DNA from: Roseibium sp. TrichSKD4
GTDB taxonomy: Bacteria > Pseudomonadota > Alphaproteobacteria > Rhizobiales > Stappiaceae
Length of the DNA stretch: 64,000 nt
NCBI RefSeq assembly: GCF_000148725.1
Contig: NZ_GL476301.1
Span: 3,394 to 67,393, forward strand
Direction: 5' to 3'
Both the position numbers and the translations under genes were made by a program. The notes under the pieces were generated by a model. That model was not told where the DNA came from and ran no database searches. It saw only the letters and a list, made by a program, of their open reading frames with translations. Numbering within the stretch: position 1 is the first letter of the stretch; the number at the start of each line of letters is the position of its first letter. This document shows positions 34,743 to 48,595 of this stretch, piece after piece.

Positions 34743-35145
34743 CCGCTTTTGCTCAACTGTTTGTGTGATGCGGCGATATCGCGCACAAGCTGACTATCGG
34801 CATTGATACGGGCGGGAAACAGCGGCCTAGTGGCGCAAAATTCGAGGGTGTTATTGGGTCCGTCAATGAATTCAATTAGCTAACGCTGGTTTCCCGATGG
34901 TGCGTTTTGTGCGAAGAAAATCTCGGGGTTTGATCTGGATCTAAACTCACATATGAAATTTACTATACGTTTGGAAGCTCCTGCTTTAATTGGCTTCTAG
35001 AATTTGGTATGACCTACCTTAGAAAAGGTCTAAGGCAAGCAGGATGCGCATGCTGCCACGATGAGCTTGAGGGGCTTGCTCACCAGTGGTCGCCGACGAA
35101 ATCAGCCGGATTGAATTTCCGGGCGGAGAGGAAAAGGACGATCCG
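34743..35145. other. Intergenic region before hemA
   Basis: No gene is supported here; an open frame from 35009 is out of frame with hemA and has no protein character. AT content rises toward hemA. The one noteworthy element is an FNR-like box at 34930-34943, listed separately. GCCGC and GCGGC just after the ATPase stop could pair, but across a 25-base loop. Confidence 0.45.
34930..34943 (+). promoter_or_regulatory. FNR-like box upstream of hemA
   Basis: TTGAT-CTGG-ATCTA differs at one position from the FNR/FnrL consensus TTGAT-N4-ATCAA. In related alphaproteobacteria hemA is oxygen-regulated through FnrL. It lies about 200 bp before the hemA start, so a promoter just downstream could be controlled by it. 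Confidence 0.4.
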
Positions 35146-36363
35146 ATGGATCTTAATGCCTATTTTGAAGAGCGATTGTCTCAGCTTCATGAAAATGGCA
35201 ACTATCGGGTGTTTGCAGATCTGGAACGTCAGGCAGGGAACTTTCCCCGCGCGACGCGCTATCGTGAAGATGGCACGACTCAAGATGTGGCGGTCTGGTG
35301 TTCAAATGACTATCTGGGCATGGGGCAGCACGACAAAGTCGTTGGCGCGATGCAAAGTGTACTGGACAAGTGCGGCGCCGGAGCAGGCGGAACGCGCAAC
35401 ATTTCCGGAACCAATCATTACCATGTGCTTCTCGAGCAGGAACTTTCGGACCTGCACGCAAAGGAAGCTGCTCTGATCTTCACATCGGGTTATGTCTCGA
35501 ACTGGGCGGCACTTGGAACACTCGCATCGCAAGTGCCGGGCATAATCGTCTATTCCGATGCTCTTAATCACGCTTCCATGATTGAAGGAATTCGTCATGC
35601 TCGCTGTGAAAAGCGCATTTTCAAGCACAATGATGTGACCGATCTTGAGCGCTTGATGGCGGCTGATGATCCGGCTGCGCCGAAAATGGTTGCCTTTGAA
35701 AGCGTCTATTCCATGGACGGTGATATCGCGCCAATCAAGGAGATTTGCGACGTAGCTGATCGCTTCAATGCGATCACCTATCTGGACGAAGTTCACGCTG
35801 TCGGTATGTATGGTCCTCGTGGCGGTGGTGTCGCCGAGCGTGAAGGCCTTATGGATCGGGTGACGATCATTGAGGGAACACTGGGCAAGGCCTTTGGTGT
35901 TATGGGTGGATACATCACCGGCACCAAGAATATAGTCGACTTTGTTCGCTCTTTCGCAAGCGGGTTCATTTTCACAACAGCCCTGCCGCCAGCGCTGGCT
36001 GCTGGTGCTGCCGCCTCCATTCGGCATTTGAAAGAAAGCTCCGAAGAACGAGATGCGCATAAAGCTGCTGTTGCCCGTGTGCGTGCGGAACTCGATAGGC
36101 GTTCAATTCCACACATGGAAAACCCAAGTCACATCGTGCCTGTGATGGTGGGGGATGCCAAAAAGTGCAAATGGATCTCTGATATCCTGCTGGACACCTA
36201 TGGCATTTACGTCCAGCCGATCAACTATCCAACCGTTCCGGTGGGTGCAGAGCGATTGCGGTTTACGCCAACTCCGTTCCACACTGAGGACGATATTCGT
36301 AACCTTGCGGAAGCTTTATGTGATCTCTGGTCCCAGTGCGCGCTTGCAAGGGCAGTTGCCTAA
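35146..36363 (+). CDS. hemA: 5-Aminolevulinate synthase
   Basis: A 405-residue PLP enzyme that condenses glycine and succinyl-CoA to 5-aminolevulinate, the first step of tetrapyrrole synthesis in alphaproteobacteria. The PLP lysine is Lys248 in [30 protein letters not shown] and [16 protein letters not shown] are family fingerprints. The ATG at 35146 follows AAAAGGA. It is monocistronic, ends in a strong terminator, and may be under FNR control. Length is normal. Confidence 0.95.
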
Positions 36364-37566: not shown

Positions 37567-38103
37567 ATGAATACCAAAGTGCCCGAAGGCGTTATCACAA
37601 TTCCGGCAATTGCAGAAGATGGAACCTTGTATCCCGTCGAAAAACTCAAGGCTCACGTAGATGCCTTGTTTCATCTCGCTGTTTCTGTTTTCGTTTTTGA
37701 TGGGGACCATCTTCTTATCCAGCAACGGGCAGCGGACAAATATCATTGTGGCGGCCAGTGGGCGAATACCTGCTGCACGCATCCACATTGGGGCGAAAAC
37801 CTGCAGGATTGCGCTGAACGTAGATTGCAGGAAGAGCTTGGCTTTTCATTGCCGCTCACTGAAATGCGGGTGGAGGAATATTTTGCTGCCGTCGATGGCG
37901 GCCTTCATGAACATGAGCGTGTCACCCTGTATAGAGGGCAAGCTGACAAAGCGTTCTTGAAGGTGAGGCCAAATCAGGCCGAAGTTTCTCAAACACGATG
38001 GATTACTGCAGAAGAGCTAAAGCGGGAGATGGCTCACAGTCCCGAAGCGTTTACACCTTGGTTCCATATCTATTTGGATCGCTTCCCAACCTTGGTTCTG
38101 TGA
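37567..38103 (+). CDS. idi: Isopentenyl-diphosphate delta-isomerase, type I
   Basis: A 178-residue Nudix-fold isomerase. WANTCCTHPHWGE contains the catalytic cysteine and metal histidines, RRLQEELGF is the Nudix-derived helix with metal glutamates, and FTPWFHIYL closes the domain. It interconverts isopentenyl and dimethylallyl diphosphate for isoprenoid synthesis. In alphaproteobacteria idi often occurs with carotenoid or bacteriochlorophyll genes, but none is seen here. It starts 22 bp from the divergent GT61 gene. Confidence 0.93.
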   Translation: MNTKVPEGVITIPAIAEDGTLYPVEKLKAHVDALFHLAVSVFVFDGDHLLIQQRAADKYHCGGQWANTCCTHPHWGENLQDCAERRLQEELGFSLPLTEMRVEEYFAAVDGGLHEHERVTLYRGQADKAFLKVRPNQAEVSQTRWITAEELKREMAHSPEAFTPWFHIYLDRFPTLVL

Positions 38104-38371: not shown

Positions 38372-39697
38372 ATGAGACCTTCAAAACGCAACAAACGGTG
38401 TGGCGATCTGTTCAAGGAACGCCTGGCCGCAATCATCGATATGAACCATTCGTTGGTGCGGCTGTCTGGTCTGATGCCTTGGGATGAATTTGATGCGGAG
38501 TTCGGCAGGCATTATCGCCCCTTGGGACGACCGGCCAAACCAACGCGTCTGATGGCCGGGCTGCACTTTCTCAAGCACATGTACGATCTTTCCGATGAAG
38601 AGACGGTTGAGCGTTGGGTTGAAAACCCCTACTGGCAGTCTTTCTGCGGTTTTGAGTTTTTCCAGCACCAATTCCCCATTGATCCCTCAACCATGACCCG
38701 CTGGCGCAAACGGATTGGTCCTGAGGGAATGGAAAAGCTTCTTTCTGCTACGGTAGGTGTTGCGATTGAGAGCGGGACGATCAAGAAGAGCAGCCTTGAG
38801 CGGGTCTTGGTTGATACGACCGTTCAACCCAAAGCCATTGCCCATCCCACCGATAGCCGTCTTTATCACAAGGCCTTGCAGCTTCTGGTGCGCCAGGCCA
38901 AGAGGGCCGGCATCATCTTGCGTCGCAGCCATACCAGAGTTGCCAAAAAGGCGGCCTTGATGGCGGGCCGTTATGCCCATGCCAAACAGTTCAAGCGGAT
39001 GCGCCGGGAACTCAAAAAGCTGAAGACCTATCTGGGCCGGGTCTATCGCGACATCTCCCGCAAGATCGCAGGCAACGAAGGTCTTGAGCACCGGTTCTCC
39101 CGTCTGCTGGGACTGGTGGAGCGGCTTCTGGCCCAGACCCCCAAGGACAAAAACAAGATTTATTCCATGCATGCGCCGGAAGTGGCCTGTATTGCCAAGG
39201 GCAAGGCGCGAACACCTTACGAGTTCGGGGCCAAGGTTGGCATTGCCACGACCAATCGGGAAGGATTGGTTCTTGCGGCGAGGGCTTTTGAGGGCAATCC
39301 CTATGATGGGCACACCTTGAATGACACCATCAGTCAGGCTGAGAAAGTCTGCGGCACCAAAGCTGAGCGTGTCTATGTGGACCGTGGCTATCGGGGGCAT
39401 GATTATGAGGGCGACGCCAAGGTCATGATCTCCGGCCAGAAGCGCGGGCTGACGGCACAGATGAAGCGTGAGCTGAAACGACGATCAGCGATCGAGGCCA
39501 CCATCGGCCACATGAAAACAGATGGACGACTTGACCGGAACTTCCTCAATGGCAAAAATGGCGATGCCATCAACGCCCTGCTGGCCGCAGCCGGTCATAA
39601 CCTGCGTCTGATCCTCAATGCACTGATCATTTTGCTGCTCTGGATCACAAACCCCATCCCCAAACCGGTCAAATCGAATATTTGCGTATTGCTTCGG
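38343..39697 (+). mobile_element. IS5-type insertion sequence, approximate extent
   Basis: The element is defined by the intact DDE transposase gene. Its ends are uncertain. The best inverted pair I can find is CCGAAGCA-CGCA at 38343-38354 and, reversed, CCGAAGCA-(3 bases)-CGCA at 39683-39697, an imperfect match with a 3-base gap. No convincing target-site duplication flanks these positions. It separates idi from the antiporter gene; neither neighbour is visibly broken. Confidence 0.5.
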
Positions 39698-39721
39698 CCA
39701 CGCGCAACATCAATGGCTTAG
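38372..39721 (+). CDS. IS5-family DDE transposase
   Basis: A 449-residue transposase with no stop or frameshift. An N-terminal IS5-type domain (LMAGLHFLKHMYDLSDEE, PSTMTRWRKRIG) precedes the DDE core: Asp148 in VLVDTTVQPKA, a second Asp in YVDRGYRGHD and Glu in RRSAIEATIGHMK. The middle is a basic, helical insertion. The last 15 or so residues (beyond PKPVKSN) run past the putative right end and may be host-encoded read-through. It is likely able to mobilise the element. Confidence 0.88.
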   Translation: MRPSKRNKRCGDLFKERLAAIIDMNHSLVRLSGLMPWDEFDAEFGRHYRPLGRPAKPTRLMAGLHFLKHMYDLSDEETVERWVENPYWQSFCGFEFFQHQFPIDPSTMTRWRKRIGPEGMEKLLSATVGVAIESGTIKKSSLERVLVDTTVQPKAIAHPTDSRLYHKALQLLVRQAKRAGIILRRSHTRVAKKAALMAGRYAHAKQFKRMRRELKKLKTYLGRVYRDISRKIAGNEGLEHRFSRLLGLVERLLAQTPKDKNKIYSMHAPEVACIAKGKARTPYEFGAKVGIATTNREGLVLAARAFEGNPYDGHTLNDTISQAEKVCGTKAERVYVDRGYRGHDYEGDAKVMISGQKRGLTAQMKRELKRRSAIEATIGHMKTDGRLDRNFLNGKNGDAINALLAAAGHNLRLILNALIILLLWITNPIPKPVKSNICVLLRPRATSMA

Positions 39722-39804: not shown

Positions 39805-41064
39805 ATGGCTACTGGCTTGTTGTTGTTGGCGTTTTTTACGGTCAGTTATACGCTGATCGCCAAACGACTATCTGCCACCGTTATTACAGCCCCAATGGTT
39901 TTCCTGGGTTTTGGGGTGCTCATTTCCGTTAGCGGATTGATGCCCACGGATGATGCTGAGGGTCTGTTGCACATCGTTGCAGAACTGGCCCTCATCATTC
40001 TTCTATTTTTGGATGCTGCGCAAATCGACCTGAAGTCTCTTCGGACCAATTACATTTGGCCATTGAGAATGTTGCTCATCGGATTGCCGCTCTCTGTGCT
40101 GTTGGGCACCTTGGCATTTTGGCCCATTCTTGGGGGAGAGCTTCCATTGGTGGCGATTGCGCTTCTTGCGGCGATTTTGGCCCCCACTGATGCTGCACTT
40201 GGTCAGGCTGTTGTTACGAATGAGGCAGTTCCAGGTAGAGTGCGGCGCGGATTGATTGTTGAAAGCGGTCTCAATGACGGATTGGCTCTTCCGGTTATCT
40301 TGCTGTTCGCCAGTTTGAGTGCGAGCGCCATGCAGGAAGAGGGGGCAAACTGGTTGCTTTTCGGAGTAAGCCAGATTGTGCTTGGTCCCCTTGTTGGCGG
40401 AATTGTGGGCTGGATTGCCGGGCAGATGTTCCTTGCAGCTAAACGCCGCAAACTCACATCTCAACACATTGAGGGAATAGGTGCGATTGCACTGGCCTGT
40501 GCGTGCTACTTGCTGGCAGATCTTGTGGGTGGCAACGGCTTTATCTCTGCTTTTGTTGCCGGGCTCATGTTCGGAAATACGGTGAAGGGTCAGTGTCCGT
40601 TCATTTATGAGTTTACCGAAGAAGAAGGTCAGATGCTGACATGGAGTGCCTTCTTCTTAATCGGGTTGGCTCTTGTGCCACATGCTGTTCAGCACCTTGA
40701 CCTGACAACGCTTGGCCTCATCTGCATCAGCTTGTTTGTTGTGCGCCCCTTGGCGATCTGGATCTCGCTCATCGGCACGAAATCATTGCCGGAAACGCGA
40801 TTGTTCTTCGGCTGGTTTGGGCCTCGTGGTCTAGCAACCGCACTGTTTGCCTTGTTGATCGTTGAGCAGATCGACCCGGAACTCGGTGAGACAATCCTTA
40901 ACTTTGCAGTCAATGCGGTGTGGATCAGTGTCGTGCTTCACGGTGTGAGCGCCGTGCCGGGCGCCCATTGGTATGCGGCGCGGATTAACACCCGCTCCAA
41001 CCCAGCCGAATTGATTGATCTACCAGCTATGAAGCCGGACGAGCCTCAGGCTGTCTCTGAATAG
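39805..41064 (+). CDS. CPA1-type Na+/H+ (cation/proton) antiporter
   Basis: A 419-residue membrane protein with about 12 hydrophobic segments. LAPTDAALGQAVVTNEAVP and ESGLNDGLALPVILLF carry the membrane aspartates of CPA1 antiporters (TD and ND). The start is the ATG at 39805 behind CGGGAGCGG; the longer frame runs back into the IS element. It would exchange Na+ or K+ for protons at the inner membrane, useful in seawater. It lies 51 bp before the Rieske operon on the same strand and might share a transcript. Confidence 0.85.
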   Translation: MATGLLLLAFFTVSYTLIAKRLSATVITAPMVFLGFGVLISVSGLMPTDDAEGLLHIVAELALIILLFLDAAQIDLKSLRTNYIWPLRMLLIGLPLSVLLGTLAFWPILGGELPLVAIALLAAILAPTDAALGQAVVTNEAVPGRVRRGLIVESGLNDGLALPVILLFASLSASAMQEEGANWLLFGVSQIVLGPLVGGIVGWIAGQMFLAAKRRKLTSQHIEGIGAIALACACYLLADLVGGNGFISAFVAGLMFGNTVKGQCPFIYEFTEEEGQMLTWSAFFLIGLALVPHAVQHLDLTTLGLICISLFVVRPLAIWISLIGTKSLPETRLFFGWFGPRGLATALFALLIVEQIDPELGETILNFAVNAVWISVVLHGVSAVPGAHWYAARINTRSNPAELIDLPAMKPDEPQAVSE

Positions 41065-41115: not shown

Positions 41116-42726
41116 ATGACGCCACAATCCTTAGCCAAACTAAGCTCATTGCATGATCGGAAACCGCAATATGCCTTGGTTGGCGAGGTTGATCTTGTCG
41201 TGGTCCGGTTTGATGAAGAGGTGTCGGTTTTTTACGGACGGTGCCTTCACCGCGGCGCATTGATGTCTGATGGATTTGTTAAAGACAACAACCTGATCTG
41301 CGGTGTGTACTACTGGGACTATCGGGTCGATACTGGCGTTTCAGAATACAACAACGCAGAGGTTCTGCCCAAATTTCAGTCATGGATTGAAGGTGATGAC
41401 GTTTTAGTTGATGCCGACGAGATTGCAGCGTGGGCAGAAGCAAATCCGCAACCCTTCGATCGTGACGCTTATCTTGGGCTTTATGCCGATACAAGCCATG
41501 GTACGGAAGAAGAGCCATACACTGGCTTGATCCAAAGGTATGCGCGCGAGGGATTGTCGAAAACAGGGCATCACGGTGTAGTCGATGCCATGGGGGTGCC
41601 GCGTGGCCAGTTACCGGACTGGGATGACATTCAGATTCTGACTGCGCAGCTTCATCGCATGCCGCTGCTGGATGACGAGGCTGTCGGGACCGAAATTGTC
41701 ATTGGCCCGAACGCCAAAAAACCTTTGAAACTGGCAATCCCGCTGATGGTTTCGGACATGAGCTACGGGGCCTTGTCGGAACCTGCAAAGCTCGCGCTCG
41801 CCCGTGGTGCAGAGCTTGCCGGAACCGGGATATGTTCGGGCGAAGGCGGTATGTTGCCTGAAGAGCAGGAAGCCAATTCCCGATATTTCTATGAACTTGC
41901 ATCCGGTCGCTTCGGATTTGAATGGGACAAGCTGGCGAAGGTTCAAGCCTTTCACTTTAAAGGTGGGCAGGGTGCGAAAACCGGAACTGGTGGGCATCTT
42001 CCCGGCAACAAGGTGAAAGGCAAGATTGCTCAAGTTCGTGGCTTGAACCAAGGCGAGGCTGCGATCTCGCCATCCCGTTTTCCTGATTGGGCTGACATTT
42101 CTCAAATCAGGGAATTTGCAGATGAAGTGCGCAGTCGAACTGGCGGCATTCCGGTCGGCTACAAGCTGTCCGCGCAGCATGTCGAAAAAGATATAGATGC
42201 GGCTCTGGAAGTGGGCGTTGACTATATCATTCTCGATGGTCGTGGTGGCGGTACGGGCGCTGCGCCGATTATCTTTCGAGATAACATATCTGTTCCGACC
42301 ATTCCGGCTTTGGCTCGCGCTCGGCGCCACCTGGATAGTTTGGGGCGGAAAGATGTGACCCTTGTGATTACCGGAGGTTTGCGTAAGCCCGCTGACTTCA
42401 TAAAGGCTCTGGCACTTGGCGCGGATGCTATCGCTCTTTCCAACTCCGCTATGCAGGCAATTGGCTGTCTTGCAATGCGCGCCTGCCATACGAACAACTG
42501 CCCGGTTGGAATTGCCAGCCAGAAACCGCATTTGGTCAACCGGTTGGTCGTTGAAAAGTCTGCCCGTCAACTAACAAACTTTTTTGAGGCATCTGTAGAA
42601 CTCATGCAGGTGATGGCTCGCGCCTGCGGACACCGTCACTTGTCTGACTTCAATTTGGACGATCTTACGACCTGGAAGAAGGACATTTCAGAGCTGTCTG
42701 GTGTCCCATTCGGCGGGTTGGCTTAA
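41116..42726 (+). CDS. Glutamate-synthase-like FMN/3Fe-4S protein with N-terminal Rieske-like domain
   Basis: A 536-residue fusion. Residues 1-105 resemble a Rieske [2Fe-2S] domain: Cys43-x-His45, then Cys62, but the fourth ligand expected at 65 is Tyr (CGVYYWDYR; TAC where CAC would give His). Residues about 150-530 are a GltB-type FMN barrel with SEGEGGM-like and GGQGAKTGTGGHLPG motifs and a 3Fe-4S triad Cys451-x5-Cys457-x4-Cys462. It lacks the glutaminase domain of true glutamate synthase. It heads the three-Rieske operon; the substrate is unknown. Start ATG follows GAGGGAGAAATAG. Confidence 0.82.
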   Translation: MTPQSLAKLSSLHDRKPQYALVGEVDLVVVRFDEEVSVFYGRCLHRGALMSDGFVKDNNLICGVYYWDYRVDTGVSEYNNAEVLPKFQSWIEGDDVLVDADEIAAWAEANPQPFDRDAYLGLYADTSHGTEEEPYTGLIQRYAREGLSKTGHHGVVDAMGVPRGQLPDWDDIQILTAQLHRMPLLDDEAVGTEIVIGPNAKKPLKLAIPLMVSDMSYGALSEPAKLALARGAELAGTGICSGEGGMLPEEQEANSRYFYELASGRFGFEWDKLAKVQAFHFKGGQGAKTGTGGHLPGNKVKGKIAQVRGLNQGEAAISPSRFPDWADISQIREFADEVRSRTGGIPVGYKLSAQHVEKDIDAALEVGVDYIILDGRGGGTGAAPIIFRDNISVPTIPALARARRHLDSLGRKDVTLVITGGLRKPADFIKALALGADAIALSNSAMQAIGCLAMRACHTNNCPVGIASQKPHLVNRLVVEKSARQLTNFFEASVELMQVMARACGHRHLSDFNLDDLTTWKKDISELSGVPFGGLA

Positions 42727-42746
42727 GGGCAGGTGGAGACATTTTC

Positions 42747-44723
42747 ATGACCACGCAGAATGTTGAATGGATCTCGGTTGGCCGGGTCGAGGATTTGCCG
42801 GAAGGGCGAGTGAAAACGGTTACGGCCCGCACGACCTCTATTTGCCTGTCACATTTTGACGGCCAATGGGCGGCGATGGACAACAAATGCCCTCACCAGG
42901 GCGGGCCTCTCGGGGAAGGGTCTATCGAAAAGGGGGAAGGCGGTAAGTGCTGGATCCGCTGTCCATGGCATGGGTGGGATTTTGACCCTCTCACAGGTGC
43001 GCCTCCCGGTGGCCATGAGGATACCGGCCAGACGCTCTATCCGGTTAAAGTTGAGGCGGGCGAGATCTTTATCGGTCTTGAACCTGAACCTGCCCGTGAG
43101 CGCACTGTGACTGATGTCATGGCCGAAACGATGGTCAACTGGGGTGTGAAGCGGGTGTTTGGAATGGTTGGTCATTCCAATCTCGGATTGGCGGAAGCTC
43201 TTCGGACGCAAACCATCAAAGGTACACTTGGCTATGTTGGCATTCGCCATGAAGGGGCTGCTTCTTTTGCGGCATCTGCCTACGGCAAATTAACCGGTAA
43301 ACCGGCTGCGTGCCTGGCAATTGCGGGGCCGGGGGCAACCAACCTTCTAACCGGCCTTTGGGATGCCAAGGTCGATCGGGCCCCCGTCCTTGCTCTGACG
43401 GGTCAGGTTCAGACCCAGGTTTTCGGGCCAGGGGCCTTCCAGGATATCGACTTGAAATCTGCGTTTCAGGCAGTGTCGAAGTTTTCTCAGCCTGTTCTGT
43501 CGTCTTCGGACCACGGGGAGCTGATGTCGCTGGCGCTCAAAAACGCGATTGTTCAACGGGACGTCGCCCACCTTATTTTTCCCGATGATGTGCAAACGGT
43601 TCCAAGCGAGGCAAAAGCCAAGGGTCCTGAAGGGCGCATGGGCGGGAATGTCGTCGTGCCCAATGCCAATGATGTTTCATCAGCTGCAAAAATGCTGAAC
43701 AGTGCCAAACGTCCGATCATTGTCCTTGGTTATGGTGCAATTGAAGCACGCGATAAGGTGATTGCGCTTGCCGAAAAGATCGGCGCACCTGTGCTGACGA
43801 CATTCAAGGGCAAGGGGCTGATTTCAGACACCCATCCAAATGCTGCGGGTGTGTTGGGCCGGTCGGGGACACCGATTGCCAGCTGGTTCATGAACGAATC
43901 CGATTTGATTCTGTCACTTGGGTCCTCCTTTGCCAATCACACCGGAATTGAACCCTCAAAGCCGATCATTCAGGTCGACTTTGAGCAAATGCAGCTTGGT
44001 AAGTTTCATCCGGTCACGCTGCCAGTCTGGGGTGAAATTGGGGCGTTTTGCGATGCGATTGCGCCAACAGTGTCGAGAGACCCGGACGCACCGGATCAGA
44101 TTACTGAACTGGTGGAGCGCTGGGAAATCTGGCGTAAGGAAAAAGAGGCTCGACTCGCCGAGGATCATGGCTCTGGTGTTCATTCTGCCTCTGTTTTCAA
44201 GGTCTTGACTGAACTCGCGCCAGAAGATGCGATTATCCCGGTGGATGTTGGCAACAACACCTACTCCTTCGGGCGCTATTTTGAGCCAAAGGGGCAGCGT
44301 ATCTTGATGTCCGGCTATCTCGGTTCCATCGGTTTCAGCTTTCCTGCTGCTCTCGGAGCATGGTGCGCGACACAGGACTTTGCAGATTACAAAGGCCGAA
44401 AAGTAATCTCCATTTCAGGCGATGGAGGCTTTGGGCAATATGCGATGGAGTTCAACACCGCGGTCAAATACGGGATGAACATCACGCATATCCTTTTAAA
44501 TAACAGCCAGCTTGGCAAGATCTCGAAAGAGCAAAAGGCAGGCGAGTGGCCAGTGTGGGAAACAAACCTTACCAACCCATCTTTCGCAGCTTTTGCCCGA
44601 CTATGCGGTGGACATGGCACACGTGTAACAGAGGCGGGGCAGCTGCATGATGCGATTGCAGAAGCCCTTGCCCATGACGGCCCGTCGCTGGTGGAGATCA
44701 TAACGGACCCCGAACTCGTTTAA
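42747..44723 (+). CDS. ThDP-dependent 2-oxoacid oxidase/decarboxylase-like enzyme with N-terminal Rieske domain
   Basis: A 658-residue fusion. Residues 1-112 are a complete Rieske ferredoxin-like domain (Cys48, His50, Cys72, His75). Residues 118-658 are a ThDP enzyme of the PoxB/acetolactate synthase family: activating Glu169 in IRHEGAASFAASAYG, GPGATNLLTGL, and the ThDP-Mg motif GDG (558-560) to NN (585-586). Glu169 separates it from glyoxylate carboligase, which has Val there. A likely reaction is oxidative decarboxylation of a 2-oxoacid with electrons passed to the attached cluster. This domain pairing is unfamiliar to me. It lies 20 bases after the GltB-like gene. Confidence 0.83.
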   Translation: MTTQNVEWISVGRVEDLPEGRVKTVTARTTSICLSHFDGQWAAMDNKCPHQGGPLGEGSIEKGEGGKCWIRCPWHGWDFDPLTGAPPGGHEDTGQTLYPVKVEAGEIFIGLEPEPARERTVTDVMAETMVNWGVKRVFGMVGHSNLGLAEALRTQTIKGTLGYVGIRHEGAASFAASAYGKLTGKPAACLAIAGPGATNLLTGLWDAKVDRAPVLALTGQVQTQVFGPGAFQDIDLKSAFQAVSKFSQPVLSSSDHGELMSLALKNAIVQRDVAHLIFPDDVQTVPSEAKAKGPEGRMGGNVVVPNANDVSSAAKMLNSAKRPIIVLGYGAIEARDKVIALAEKIGAPVLTTFKGKGLISDTHPNAAGVLGRSGTPIASWFMNESDLILSLGSSFANHTGIEPSKPIIQVDFEQMQLGKFHPVTLPVWGEIGAFCDAIAPTVSRDPDAPDQITELVERWEIWRKEKEARLAEDHGSGVHSASVFKVLTELAPEDAIIPVDVGNNTYSFGRYFEPKGQRILMSGYLGSIGFSFPAALGAWCATQDFADYKGRKVISISGDGGFGQYAMEFNTAVKYGMNITHILLNNSQLGKISKEQKAGEWPVWETNLTNPSFAAFARLCGGHGTRVTEAGQLHDAIAEALAHDGPSLVEIITDPELV

Positions 44724-44784
44724 GTCCAAGCGAGGCGGATGATATCAGTGCCGGTATTTCTGAGTGGTACGAAAAGGAAAGACA

Positions 44785-45018
44785 ATGACGACAGCCATGC
44801 TTTTGGTGATGTGGGTTCAGTATTACCTTTATGTCGGAGCAGGTGTTGCGCTTGTCTTTCTGCTTTTCGGAATGGACCGGATCGACGCGTCAGCTCATGG
44901 AAGCTATGCGTTCCGTCCGCTTTTGATCCCTGGAATTTGTCTGTTATGGCCGTTGGTTCTTTATCGCTGGTTGCAGCTGGAGCGCGCCCAAAGTTCAGAA
45001 GAGGGGAAAGCAAAATGA
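44785..45018 (+). CDS. Small two-helix membrane protein
   Basis: A 77-residue protein with two hydrophobic segments (about residues 4-29 and 44-60) separated by a polar GMDRIDASAHGSY stretch. The ATG at 44785 has AAAAGGAAAG upstream. Its stop overlaps the next start (ATGA), and it lies 61 bases after the ThDP gene. I do not recognise the family. Size and position suggest an accessory subunit or anchor for the membrane complex encoded downstream. Confidence 0.7.
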   Translation: MTTAMLLVMWVQYYLYVGAGVALVFLLFGMDRIDASAHGSYAFRPLLIPGICLLWPLVLYRWLQLERAQSSEEGKAK

Positions 45019-45176
45019 AGCGGCCTCATCGAACAGTTCACGCCCGTCTCTGGCTCGTTCTGGCATGGGCGCTTCCAGTTGTGTTTCTTGGGGTAATGGC
45101 CTTGAAACAGACCGCGCCCAATAATCGGCCAGCGGTACTTCTGGAAGCACCTTCAGACACTGGAGGGCAACAATGA
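45015..45176 (+). CDS. Very small single-helix membrane protein
   Basis: A 53-residue protein with a basic N-terminus (MKRPHRTVHAR), one membrane segment (LWLVLAWALPVVFLGVMAL) and a short polar tail. It is bounded by ATGA overlaps at 45015 and 45173, so it is almost certainly translated as part of the operon. The family is not recognised. Small single-span subunits of this kind are common in cytochrome complexes, which fits the cytochrome-like gene that follows. Confidence 0.7.
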   Translation: MKRPHRTVHARLWLVLAWALPVVFLGVMALKQTAPNNRPAVLLEAPSDTGGQQ

Positions 45177-46246
45177 GCGTTAAATACAATCCGGTGATCT
45201 GGAACCGGAACAAATATATCTATGATGCGTTTCTTTTGATTGCTGTTGCGCTCTACCTATACATTTATTTACGAGTTGCACCGGGTTTTCAGGATGTCAC
45301 GAGGCCTCTTGACGGCGCAATCTTGCGGATGCGCGCCTTTGGCAGCTGTGCGTTTTTGATGCTTACAGTGATCCTGTGCATTGGACCGCTGGCCCGGTTG
45401 GACCGACGTTTTTTGCCGCTTCTTTATAACCGCCGGCACTTTGGAGTGCTGACTGCTGCTATTGCTGCGGTTCATGCAAACTATGTCCTTGGTTGGTATT
45501 TCGCATTCAGCCCGACCAACTCTTACGAAGCCCTTTTGTCATCCAATACCAGCTATGGACAGGTTCTCGGGTTCCCGTTTGAAGCTCTTGGTATTTTTGC
45601 GCTTCTCGTTCTGTTTGTGCTGGCCGCAACCAGTCACGATTTTTGGCTGAGTTTTCTTGGTGCCCCCCTTTGGAAGGGGCTGCACATGATGATTTACGCT
45701 GCCTACGCAGCTGTTGTGCTTCATGTTGCACTTGGAGCTTTGCAAGGCCGAAGTGATCTGCTCATGACGTCCATGGTTGCCATGAGTGTGCTGGCTGTTT
45801 GCGGTCTCCATTTTGTCGCCGGACGACAGGAACTTGCTGCTGATCAAGATGAAGAAGAGCGGGCTTCCGATGTTGCTCCAGAGGCTGAGGGTTGGGTCGT
45901 GGTTGGCCCGTTGGAAGAGATTGCCAACAACCGGGCGAAGATCGTGTCCGTGCCCGGACATGACCGGGTGGCGGTTTGGCGATACAAGGGCAAGCTTTCT
46001 GCGCTGAGCAATGCTTGCCAACACCAGAATGGTCCGTTGGGGGAAGGGCGCATTATTGACGGTCTCGTGACCTGCCCATGGCATGGCTACCAGTACAGAC
46101 CTGAGGATGGATGTTCTCCTGCCCCGTTTACAGAACGAATTTCGACCTACCGGCTGAAACTTATTGAGGGTGTGATCTATCTTGATCCCAAGCCCTTTGC
46201 GCCGGGAACACCTGTTGAACCTGTCTTGATTGGAGATGCAGCATGA
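45173..46246 (+). CDS. Ferric-reductase-like membrane cytochrome fused to a Rieske domain
   Basis: A 357-residue membrane protein. Residues about 15-215 form six or so membrane segments like the ferric-reductase-like transmembrane (FRD/MsrQ) family; His101, His171 and His184 in the helices are candidate haem ligands. Residues about 240-345 are a Rieske domain with all four ligands: Cys282, His284, Cys301, His304 (ACQHQNGPLGEG and CPWHGYQY). The topology would put the cluster in the cytoplasm or periplasm depending on helix count. It is the obvious electron carrier to the quinone pool or another acceptor for the operon's soluble enzymes. Confidence 0.82.
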   Translation: MSVKYNPVIWNRNKYIYDAFLLIAVALYLYIYLRVAPGFQDVTRPLDGAILRMRAFGSCAFLMLTVILCIGPLARLDRRFLPLLYNRRHFGVLTAAIAAVHANYVLGWYFAFSPTNSYEALLSSNTSYGQVLGFPFEALGIFALLVLFVLAATSHDFWLSFLGAPLWKGLHMMIYAAYAAVVLHVALGALQGRSDLLMTSMVAMSVLAVCGLHFVAGRQELAADQDEEERASDVAPEAEGWVVVGPLEEIANNRAKIVSVPGHDRVAVWRYKGKLSALSNACQHQNGPLGEGRIIDGLVTCPWHGYQYRPEDGCSPAPFTERISTYRLKLIEGVIYLDPKPFAPGTPVEPVLIGDAA

Positions 46247-47007
46247 GCGAGTCCAAACACCGCCATGAGGCACCCATTTTTGTTGGCTACCTGAACTCCA
46301 TTCCCAAACCTCTGGCAACGTTCCTCCTTGTGTTTGCGGTTTGCTTTTCAGCAGGAATGGGCGTCGCAGCATTTGGTTTGTCCTCCGTGCAGCCAGACCC
46401 GGGAGATGGCGCTTTTCGTTGGGGAAACCGATTTGAACAAACCGGCTATCTGGAGATGCGCCCTTATCCTGTTTTCCGTGTCGCCGGGGAAAACGGCGAG
46501 CCGGATCGCACGTACATGGTGTCCGGGCAAGGCAAACGTGGTGTGTTTCGGCAAGCCGAGAAGTACAAGGGCCAAGCGGTTACGCTGCGGGGCGTTCCTC
46601 TTCGGCGCGGCGATCTGACAATGGTTCAGGTTGGCCGCGTTCGCCCGAGCGAGGACGGTGCAGTTGTGACGCCGTCGAACGAGGTGACATCACTGGGAAA
46701 GTGGCGCCTGACCGGTGAAATCTGTGATGGCAAATGCTACGCGGGGGCGATGCGCCCTGGGCGTGGTCTTGCGCACAAGGCATGTGCGGATTTTTGCCTG
46801 ACGGGCGGTGTTCCGCCGGTTTTTGTCAGTTCAGGAGATGTTTCCGGGCGCAACTTCTTTCTCCTGACGGACAAGGATGGCGAGCTGTTGGGTGAGGAGC
46901 TCAAGGACCTTCTGGCGCTCTATATTGAGGTGGAAGGCGAGGTTGAGCAGCTGGATGATCTCCTTGTTTTCAAGGCCGATCTTGATACTGCGAGGGTCAT
47001 TCGATGA
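46243..47007 (+). CDS. Membrane-anchored protein with two CxxxC motifs
   Basis: A 254-residue protein with a single N-terminal membrane anchor (about residues 23-46) and a beta-rich soluble part. Residues 158-195 carry Cys161-x3-Cys165 and Cys181-x3-Cys185 within GEICDGKCYAGAM and ACADFCLTGGVPPVF, a pattern I cannot assign to a named family but which looks like a metal or cluster site. Both ends overlap neighbours by ATGA. It probably is an exported subunit of the same redox complex. Confidence 0.72.
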   Translation: MSESKHRHEAPIFVGYLNSIPKPLATFLLVFAVCFSAGMGVAAFGLSSVQPDPGDGAFRWGNRFEQTGYLEMRPYPVFRVAGENGEPDRTYMVSGQGKRGVFRQAEKYKGQAVTLRGVPLRRGDLTMVQVGRVRPSEDGAVVTPSNEVTSLGKWRLTGEICDGKCYAGAMRPGRGLAHKACADFCLTGGVPPVFVSSGDVSGRNFFLLTDKDGELLGEELKDLLALYIEVEGEVEQLDDLLVFKADLDTARVIR

Positions 47008-47246
47008 GTGCTTCTCATGTCCGTTCCCCAAAAGGTTTGCTTGTAACCGTCGTCGTGACAGCGGTTCTGTTGGTTGCCAGCTATTACGTTTTTACAGGGG
47101 CGAATGATCTTGCTCGGGAATATGCTCGTGGCACTCTCTTGACCGATCTGCGCTTTGTGGTCGGCCTATTGGCGGTCTATCTCTTTCTCACGATAGCTGA
47201 TCGCATTGTTTCATTTGTTCAAGGCAAGTTTCAAAAGGAAGGTTGA
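47004..47246 (+). CDS. Small two-helix membrane protein
   Basis: An 80-residue protein with hydrophobic segments at about 10-29 and 45-68 and a positively charged C-terminus (KFQKEG). It starts in an ATGA overlap with the CxxxC protein and ends 86 bases before the glycerate kinase gene. Family not recognised. It appears to be the third tiny membrane subunit of the operon. Confidence 0.68.
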   Translation: MSASHVRSPKGLLVTVVVTAVLLVASYYVFTGANDLAREYARGTLLTDLRFVVGLLAVYLFLTIADRIVSFVQGKFQKEG

Positions 47247-47332
47247 TTCCGGTGAAGCTCGGCTTGACACATTGCCCGCCTTGTTGAAGCTTGCGGCCTT
47301 CCATGACCTCTGATTTTTAGGGGGAGGCTGCT

Positions 47333-48595
47333 TTGCTCGCCCAACCGACAGATTTCCTACGGTCCCTTTTTGATCGTGCAGTTGAAGTTGCCGATCCGAT
47401 GAAAAGTTTGGCGGGGGCTTTGCCGGAAAAACCTCAAGGCCGCGCCGTTGTTATTGGTGCTGGAAAGGCGTCTGCCCGGATGGCTGAAGCGCTGGAAGCG
47501 ACTTGGGGTCCGTGTGAAGGACTGGTGATCACGCGTTATGGCTATGGACGCCCTTGCCAAGGAATTGAAATTGTCGAGGCGGCCCATCCTGTTCCCGATG
47601 AAGCAGGTGTTCTTGCGACGCGCCGCATGCTGGATCTTGTTGCCGGGCTTGGAGCGGACGACACTGTGATTGCCTTGATTTCTGGTGGTGCATCTTCTCT
47701 TTTGATCTCTCCAGCTGGTGATATCACCCTTGCCGAGAAACAAGCGGTCAACAGCTCTCTTCTGGCCTCGGGCGCGCCGATCAGTCAGATGAATGTTGTG
47801 CGAAAGCACCTTAGCCGTGTGAAGGGGGGGCAGCTCGCCGCAGCCGCATACCCTGCGCGCATGCTGGCGCTGCTTATATCTGATATCCCCGGTGATGATC
47901 CGGCCATGATTGGCTCTGGCCCGACCGTTGGCGACAATTCCACCGTGCAGGATGCGCTGGATGTGATGTCCAAGTGGAACATTGAAACACCGGCTTCAGT
48001 CGCTGCGGCGCTTGAAGCTGGAAGCGGTGTATTGCCGCCTGACGACGACATGCTCTCAAGAGTGTCAAACGTCATTTTTGCAGCGCCGTCCCAATCGCTG
48101 GACGCAGCTGCTGAGGTGGCCCGCGCCGAAGGAGTTCAAGTTGAAATTTTGGGTGATGCACTGGAAGGGGAGGCCCGTGATGTGGCCATTGCCCATGCAG
48201 AGCTTGCCAAACAACGCCTTGGTGAGATGGCTGAGGGCGATGTACCTTTGGTGTTGCTGTCAGGCGGCGAACTGACGGTTACCCGAACGGGCAATGGTGT
48301 CGGCGGGCCAAATGCTGAATATGCACTTGCTCTCGCAATCGCGCTGGAAGGAGCGCTGGGGATTTATGCCATTGCCTGCGACACAGATGGTGTTGACGGG
48401 GCTGCGGAAGTTGCCGGTGCCGTGATCGATCCGGACACTTTGAATAAGGCGAAAGATGTTGGGCTCGAGCCGGAAACCGCGCTCGTGTCAAATGACGCTC
48501 ACACGTTCTTTGAAAAGGTCGGATCGCAAGTGGTTCCCGGCCCGACCCTGACGAACGTCAATGATTTCCGCGCCATTCTGGTTCGCAAGTACTAG
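47333..48595 (+). CDS. Glycerate 2-kinase (MOFRL family, GckA/TtuD type)
   Basis: A 420-residue kinase. ALISGGASSLL, VRKHLSRVKGGQLA and the C-terminal MOFRL block LVLLSGGELTVTRTG with GGPNAEYALALA identify it. The family phosphorylates D-glycerate to 2-phosphoglycerate (hydroxypyruvate reductase is an old misnaming). It starts with TTG behind a strong GGGGGAGG. It follows the Rieske operon on the same strand, and its stop lies 10 bases from the converging TRAP gene. The pairing suggests that the operon handles a C2-C3 acid such as hydroxypyruvate, tartronate semialdehyde or glycerate. Confidence 0.88.
   Translation: MLAQPTDFLRSLFDRAVEVADPMKSLAGALPEKPQGRAVVIGAGKASARMAEALEATWGPCEGLVITRYGYGRPCQGIEIVEAAHPVPDEAGVLATRRMLDLVAGLGADDTVIALISGGASSLLISPAGDITLAEKQAVNSSLLASGAPISQMNVVRKHLSRVKGGQLAAAAYPARMLALLISDIPGDDPAMIGSGPTVGDNSTVQDALDVMSKWNIETPASVAAALEAGSGVLPPDDDMLSRVSNVIFAAPSQSLDAAAEVARAEGVQVEILGDALEGEARDVAIAHAELAKQRLGEMAEGDVPLVLLSGGELTVTRTGNGVGGPNAEYALALAIALEGALGIYAIACDTDGVDGAAEVAGAVIDPDTLNKAKDVGLEPETALVSNDAHTFFEKVGSQVVPGPTLTNVNDFRAILVRKY

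Follow-up and report, generated by a model that had tools for sequence, protein, structure and literature searches.

Three unrelated Rieske-domain proteins encoded in one Roseibium gene set, and a candidate membrane electron port

MsrQ (YedZ, of the MsrPQ methionine sulfoxide reductase) and the bacterial NOX and ferric reductases are built on a Ferric_reduct membrane domain with conserved histidine pairs. In passages of PMC5676040, the NOX motif is given as two His-X12/14-His pairs for two hemes, and MsrQ is described as taking electrons from a flavin reductase in the cytoplasm and handing them to a partner in the periplasm. We looked at a gene set of Roseibium sp. TrichSKD4 lying in a window of 64,000 nucleotides (the whole stretch of DNA analysed; contig NZ_GL476301.1, positions 3,394 to 67,393). 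One of its products, P5, has the same kind of membrane domain, and a C-terminal Rieske domain replaces the flavin adenine dinucleotide (FAD)/NAD(P)H domain of NOX or the separate Fre of MsrQ. Two other products, P1 and P2, carry Rieske or Rieske-like domains at their N-termini. We propose that P5 is a membrane electron port for Rieske-tagged soluble enzymes, sending electrons towards the periplasm, an interpretation that we regard as the likeliest of those considered, though evenly balanced between right and wrong.

P1 and P2 also have described relatives. GltB, the ferredoxin- or NADPH-dependent glutamate synthase, shares with P1 the flavin mononucleotide (FMN)-binding core and three 3Fe-4S cysteines; P1 differs from it by the added Rieske domain and by having no detected glutaminase domain, and the GltB stretch PPHHD corresponds to PSRFPDW in P1. 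For the thiamine diphosphate (ThDP) part of P2, the nearest solved relatives by sequence are PoxB, the pyruvate:quinone oxidoreductase of E. coli, and the PQO of C. glutamicum, PoxB being also the top match by predicted structure. The C-terminal tail of PoxB binds the membrane. P2 has no equivalent of this tail and has instead an N-terminal Rieske domain; the position of PoxB Phe465 is occupied by Lys591 (41/41 relatives; position obtained by counting). Finally, type 5 CDGSH proteins are presented in part of Lin et al. 2011 (PMC3174974) as a type 6 tandem CDGSH fused to the FMN domain of glutamate synthase. Like P1, they place an N-terminal [2Fe-2S] carrier ahead of a GltB FMN core, but their carrier consists of two CDGSH motifs and that of P1 of a single Rieske domain; the text of PMC3174974 never uses the word "Rieske".

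The three Rieske-domain proteins

P5 (45173 to 46246, + strand) combines a Ferric_reduct domain (PF01794, E 1.8e-10, 41.4 bits for a gathering score of 28) with the C-terminal Rieske domain (PF00355, E 1.1e-15). These were the only two families above cut-off in Pfam, which found no fused FAD or NADPH domain. The protein scored below the MsrQ equivalog cut-off of NCBIfam (37.3 bits versus 130), and neither database revealed an MsrP-like gene among P1 to P8. The Rieske ligands C282, H284, C301 and H304 are complete in the window and in 86/86 relatives, and the same 86 all keep histidines 89, 101, 155, 171 and 184, with His213 kept in 85. P5 probably has six helices and is a putative heme b protein. 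Five hydrophobic segments were found by hydropathy and the sixth was placed by hand; together with an arginine-rich loop at 74–89, these segments are consistent with a cytoplasmic location of the Rieske domain, as we predict.

The gene that follows encodes P6 (46243 to 47007, + strand), made of one membrane helix and two small beta-rich domains, the first possibly OB-like. The second domain contains an invariant D-x-K-C ... M ... H-x2-C-x3-C pattern, and P6 is predicted to be periplasmic. When the family was compared with the DUF5818 model of Pfam, the window copy was unmatched and 3 of 56 members matched, with a best E of 5.5e-4. In two Nitrospirota genomes (L061 and L067) P5 and P6 form a single open reading frame of 603 residues, which supports their physical association. 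If the P5 Rieske domain is indeed cytoplasmic, this fusion would also place P6 on the opposite side of the membrane from it.

P2 (42747 to 44723, + strand) consists of an N-terminal Rieske domain (PF00355, E 8.5e-17) followed by a full-length ThDP enzyme of the pyruvate oxidase/acetolactate synthase superfamily, with three TPP_enzyme domains. Its ligands C48, H50, C72 and H75 are complete in the window and in 41/41 relatives, as is Glu169, aligned with the catalytic glutamate. P2 scored below the PoxB equivalog cut-off of NCBIfam (321.2 versus 792), and its alignment with PoxB stopped at residue 528 of 572 in PoxB and 654 of 658 in P2. The fusion is easily told from other ThDP enzymes: in ten genomes searched with P2, Rieske-ThDP proteins scored at least 869 bits (6 genomes) and the other ThDP enzymes at most 209. 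Among the best 40 of 211 plasmid matches, five have the fusion, at 52–58% identity (four plasmids are haloarchaeal and one is from Mycobacteroides); the other 35 were 31–35% identical and started at residue 72 or later.

P1 (41116 to 42726, + strand) joins an N-terminal Rieske-like domain (PF00355, E 7.4e-9) to the GltB-type FMN/3Fe-4S core (Glu_synthase, PF01645, E 2.6e-90). Cysteines 451, 457 and 462, which align with the 3Fe-4S cysteines of GltB, are invariant in 46/46 relatives. The N-terminus is occupied by the Rieske domain; no glutaminase domain was matched in Pfam at E 0.1, nor was zf-CDGSH.

According to Pfam (PF00355), the three Rieske-domain proteins are all encoded on the + strand within 5.13 kb. 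A sequence-only reading of this DNA had announced three unrelated Rieske or Rieske-like proteins within 5.2 kb, with all four ligands present in the ThDP enzyme and in the membrane cytochrome, and the profiles and alignments bear it out on both counts. The domains themselves are distant from each other (identity of 22% for P1-P5, 17% for P1-P2 and 34% for P2-P5).

Co-occurrence, exchange for CDGSH and a further Rieske fusion

We then measured how often the three genes occur together in 240 alphaproteobacterial genomes (centre G001) and 221 gammaproteobacterial genomes (centre G432), both centres being chosen as P5 carriers. In these whole-genome searches a first pass selected the top candidates and only those were scored, so that a few genes may be missed, and many genomes are drafts that may lack genes. 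In the alphaproteobacteria, P5 was found in 13 genomes, P2 in 12 and Rieske-P1 in 7. Each pair shared 6 genomes, for expected values of 0.65, 0.38 and 0.35 (p 5e-6, 5e-8 and 3e-8, kinship ignored); without the centre genome, 5 were shared for 0.55, 0.30 and 0.28 expected (p 5e-5, 7e-7 and 4e-7, kinship likewise ignored). Six genomes hold all three Rieske genes. These lie together in two of them (G001 and G106), extend over some 66 kb in two others (G153 and G019) and sit on three contigs each in the last two (G133 and G237), meaning that adjacency alone does not explain the co-occurrence. In the gammaproteobacteria, Rieske-P1 was detected in 10 genomes and P2 in 4, all of which have Rieske-P1 (0.18 expected, p 2e-6, kinship ignored); when the centre was removed the count was 3/3 (p 5e-5). 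P5 was present in 1 of the 221, the chosen centre.

Outside these samples, P5 had at least 546 relatives in genome contigs at E 1e-3, and the locus counts given here come from the best 80. Many of these are metagenome bins, and the taxa are those of the record titles: most are alphaproteobacteria, with a few Nitrospirota, cyanobacteria and Verrucomicrobia and one each of an acidobacterium, a betaproteobacterium and a gammaproteobacterium. Twenty-two loci (L001–L021 and L057) are of the Roseibium type, leaving 58 others. P1 was found in 38/80 and P2 in 24/80 of the P5 stretches fetched. Among 50 genomes with P5 that are not of the Roseibium type, which correspond to 50 of the 58 loci, P1 was found in 17, P2 in 11 and both in 9. 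Eleven loci not of the Roseibium type have P1 and P2 no more than 3 kb apart (L027, L031, L061, L076, L083, L108, L121, L124, L130, L131 and L132); they include Nitrospirota and one haloarchaeal plasmid.

A second type of GltB core provided a comparison. In 3 alphaproteobacterial and 26 gammaproteobacterial genomes of the samples, the core matched P1 only from residue 124–130 onwards. Seven of these 29, with cores 65–69% identical to P1, were fetched and all have an N-terminal CDGSH motif instead of the Rieske domain; each of the three cores scanned with Pfam (L118–L120) shows two zf-CDGSH stretches. Such proteins, with a core about 63–69% identical to P1, have the known type 5 CDGSH architecture. 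In a tree of 47 cores, built without six Pseudovibrio rows and most of the Roseibium-type ones because they are near-copies, the CDGSH type needs a single change (support 99/95, root unknown). P2 was found in 10/16 Rieske-only genomes versus 0/28 CDGSH-only genomes, 21 of the latter being typed by match limits alone, and P5 in 7/16 versus 0/28 (Fisher p 3e-6 and 3e-4). Typing left aside G491 (match 196–535 only) and G496 (44% identity), and the comparison left aside G483, which has both types. The P2 contrast holds in both classes, with 6/7 versus 0/3 in the alphaproteobacteria and 4/9 versus 0/25 in the gammaproteobacteria. For P5 the figures are 6/7 versus 0/3 and 1/9 (the chosen centre) versus 0/25.

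We also scanned every reading frame in the fetched loci with the Rieske profile, P1, P2 and P5 being separated by a score cut of our own. Eleven of the 209 Rieske frames were other than these three, and five of the eleven form one family with an N-terminal Rieske domain and an FMN-reductase-like domain (PF03358), encoded downstream of P5 (L065:11102-12217, L068:12268-13425, L074:1533-2633, L079:1950-3182 and L080:2072-3292). This Rieske-FMN_red gene adjoins P5 in four loci and is about 1.2 kb away in L068. P6 went undetected in 6/80 P5 loci, and Rieske-FMN_red is present in five of these six; in the remaining one, L070, the contig is short and P5 is followed by a DUF5996-like gene. Of the remaining six frames, two are Rieske oxygenases (both in L124) and one is a fragment of P5 (L051). 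From its domains, Rieske-FMN_red is what an electron donor to P5 would be expected to look like, and its family name suggests that it would use NAD(P)H.

Layout and neighbours of the two modules

In the window, an antiporter gene, P1 to P7 (41116 to 47246) and a glycerate-kinase-like gene are consecutive and all on the + strand. The set is composed of two modules. Module A contains the antiporter, Rieske-GltB (P1), often a DUF5996 protein, and Rieske-ThDP (P2); module B contains the small membrane proteins, P5 and the membrane-anchored P6.

The first gene of module A (39805 to 41064, + strand) encodes a CPA1-type cation/proton antiporter, potassium/proton-like (PF00999, E 7e-39), whose top NCBIfam model is a potassium/proton antiporter (129.6 bits for a cut-off of 355). 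We chose the ATG at 39805 as its start; the longest frame begins at 39682. The sequence-only reading had described an operon here, with a start that misses this gene, which recurs beside P1 or P2: a relative lies within 2 kb of one or the other in 28 of the 87 loci holding P1 or P2, nine of the 28 being outside the Roseibium type (41–67% identity; some loci share one genome). Eleven loci encode a DUF5996-like protein no more than 1 kb from P1, P2 or P5 (L110, L111, L061, L130, L132, L135, L138, L098, L076, L065 and L070), with Pfam confirmation in one of them, L110.

Module B begins with P3 (44785 to 45018, + strand), a small membrane protein of two helices in which the motif FR...PG...WP is conserved, followed by P4 (45015 to 45176, + strand), a small single-helix membrane protein; P7 (47004 to 47246, + strand), again small and with two helices, comes after P6. 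P3, P4, P6 and P7 had no family match above cut-off in Pfam or NCBIfam. Small membrane proteins and a CxxxC membrane protein had been described as linked by overlaps, and four start/stop overlaps of four bases indeed run from P3 to P7 (P3/P4 at 45015–45018, P4/P5 at 45173–45176, P5/P6 at 46243–46246 and P6/P7 at 47004–47007). P3 is on the same strand as P5 and within 1.5 kb of it in 74/80 loci, and so is P6 (74/80), which makes P3-P4-P5-P6 a conserved module, to which some lineages add P1 and P2. P4 itself was detected in 32/80 loci; a longer protein of about 155–215 residues, probably related to P4, takes its position in Nitrospirota, cyanobacteria, Verrucomicrobia and an acidobacterium. P7 was found in 22/22 Roseibium-type loci versus 1/58 others.

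The glycerate 2-kinase-like gene (DUF4147/MOFRL; 47333 to 48595, + strand) had been noted as following the set. It does follow P7 by 86 bases; however, a relative exists in 4/80 P5 loci, and in only one of the 80 is it a same-strand neighbour at 1.5 kb or less from P5, so that the gene is a neighbour outside the conserved set. The closest relative of the locus among the matches listed is that of Roseibium sediminis (81% identity for P5 and 89% for the P1 core), which makes the Stappiaceae its most probable origin.

Other neighbours were noted. By inspection, a transposase-like frame of 449 residues (38372–39721) lies immediately upstream of the antiporter gene, and 35086–36363 and 37567–38103 resemble 5-aminolevulinate synthase and isopentenyl-diphosphate isomerase genes. 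Clustering placed a CoA-transferase III gene near P5 in 13 loci (L028, L029, L042–L045, L047, L050, L054, L074, L086, L087 and L114), frequently accompanied by a ThDP gene that is acetolactate-synthase-like and has no Rieske domain; the families of this neighbourhood were checked in L086, L114, L044 and L055 only. A short-chain dehydrogenase/reductase gene is upstream of P3 in many rhizobial loci, and a six-locus cluster of YHS-domain-like proteins lies near P5 (L116:5925-6389 above the Pfam cut-off, L075:13710-14162 below it).

A membrane port for Rieske-tagged enzymes and its alternatives

If P5 is such a port, it would work like MsrQ or a bacterial NOX in which a Rieske [2Fe-2S] cluster replaces the cytoplasmic FAD/NAD(P)H part of NOX, and soluble enzymes would dock on it through their own Rieske domains. 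P2 would perform the oxidative decarboxylation of a 2-oxoacid via ThDP and perhaps FAD, and P1 would oxidise its substrate at the FMN and pass the electrons through its 3Fe-4S cluster. Single electrons would then travel from the Rieske cluster of the enzyme to that of P5 and through the b hemes across the membrane, ending on P6, on a different acceptor in the periplasm or in the quinone pool. P1, P2 and the antiporter, often with DUF5996, would make up a cytoplasmic module that needs another acceptor where P5 is absent. Judging by domain matches, three unrelated cores with an N-terminal Rieske domain (GltB-type FMN/3Fe-4S, ThDP and, elsewhere, FMN-reductase-like) are encoded beside P5. The port proposal is based on these Pfam architectures, on ligand conservation and on the co-occurrence of unlinked genes in the alphaproteobacteria; on P1 accompanying P2 in 4/4 gammaproteobacteria and lying near it in the 11 loci; on the contrast with the CDGSH type, on Rieske-FMN_red after P5 and on the P5-P6 single frame; on the hydrophobic segments and arginine-rich loop of P5; and on P2 ending about where the tail of PoxB would begin.

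Several observations weigh against the port. Half of the alphaproteobacterial P2 genomes (6/12) have no P5, 7/13 of the P5 genomes have neither P1 nor P2, and outside the Roseibium type the P5 stretches fetched contain P1 in 16/58 cases and P2 in 4/58. At E 1e-40, P5 was missing from 9/10 gammaproteobacterial Rieske-P1 genomes and from 3/4 P2 genomes; P5 is thus not an obligatory partner of P1 and P2, which speaks against it as their general one, and, since 8/9 gammaproteobacterial Rieske-only genomes are without it, the P5 contrast with the CDGSH type rests on the alphaproteobacteria. The statistics ignore the kinship of the sampled genomes, and part of the co-occurrence could be due to common descent. 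In P5 itself, H171-X12-H184 fits the NOX motif and H89-X11-H101 is off it, all four histidines being present in 86/86 relatives. Lastly, the window copy of P1 keeps C43, H45 and C62 but has Tyr65 as its fourth ligand position. This position is His in 46/46 relatives, and the P1 of Roseibium aggregatum (L004) has its ligands intact. The window codon, tac (41308–41310), is one base off a His codon; H65Y is therefore either an error in the sequence or a real change, as a polymorphism or in a decaying copy. The term "Rieske-like" used at the outset for the GltB-like protein suits this copy, and from its ligands the P1 family is Rieske. The sequence-only reading had made the fused clusters tethered shuttles to the membrane cytochrome and had suggested following the ThDP-Rieske and cytochrome-Rieske genes across genomes. 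It is partly supported: the six alphaproteobacterial genomes shared by the two agree with it, and the gammaproteobacteria, with P1 or P2 mostly without P5, are its main weakness.

The gammaproteobacterial genomes having P1 and P2 without P5 would be accounted for if these two proteins partner each other. The ThDP enzyme would oxidise a 2-oxoacid, the GltB-type FMN enzyme would reduce, electrons would pass from Rieske to Rieske with the antiporter correcting the proton/cation balance, and P5-P6 would be a separate system, adjacent in some lineages. The genes are also near each other on two haloarchaeal plasmids (no full-length P5 was found on the plasmids searched; chromosomes were not searched), and loci without P5 again show antiporter and DUF5996 genes in the company of P1 or P2. 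Such a soluble pair nevertheless leaves aside the co-occurrence of alphaproteobacterial P5 with both genes even when unlinked, the presence at P5 of a Rieske fusion, Rieske-FMN_red, without P1 or P2, and the 6/16 Rieske-only genomes in which P1 is found without P2, and we consider it rather unlikely. The port could also run inwards, a quinol or a periplasmic donor reducing P5, whose Rieske domain would feed reductive reactions of P1 and P2, for P1 as ferredoxin feeds glutamate synthase. The gene content leaves the direction of electron flow unfixed; in ferredoxin-dependent glutamate synthases the GltB core is used for reduction, and a flavin could be reduced by Rieske ferredoxins of low potential. 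However, the FMN-reductase-like fusion beside P5 resembles a donor and the ThDP core of P2 is nearest to oxidases; a quinol-fed, high-potential Rieske cluster is also a poor FMN reductant, an argument weaker than we first thought. Inward flow seems improbable to us. Least probable, and in our opinion very much so, is the absence of any direct partnership, the Rieske domains having been recruited independently as sensors or stabilisers and the genes brought together by a shared lifestyle or by gene-cluster transfer. The distance between the three domains (17–34% identity) and the share of co-occurrence that common descent could explain would suit it, but it accords poorly with a P2 association that differs with the cluster domain of GltB (10/16 versus 0/28), with co-occurrence without adjacency and with the involvement of three different cores.

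A search of the open-access literature by title and start of abstract, which does not cover closed journals, gave nothing on this gene set or on Rieske-ThDP or Rieske-GltB fusions, and no open-access paper with the words DUF5818 or DUF5996 was found. All the parts come from known superfamilies; their combination and the interchangeable cluster domain appear to be new. Extending the port proposal, we tentatively suggest, as a possibility short of an even chance, an undescribed plug-and-socket network. In it, the Rieske domain would be a plug interchangeable on unrelated cytoplasmic enzymes and P5 the Rieske socket, and the exchange of CDGSH for Rieske would re-wire the same GltB core between networks. 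If this is true, a NOX/MsrQ-like membrane port would be fed by Rieske-tagged enzymes and not by flavin or NAD(P)H, providing a new route that links oxidation by soluble enzymes to the membrane. An FMN core of one kind, carrying either Rieske or CDGSH clusters, would then be a natural experiment in which it could be tested directly whether cluster type decides the electron partner, and the system would give a handle on the CDGSH-GltB proteins, DUF5996 and DUF5818.

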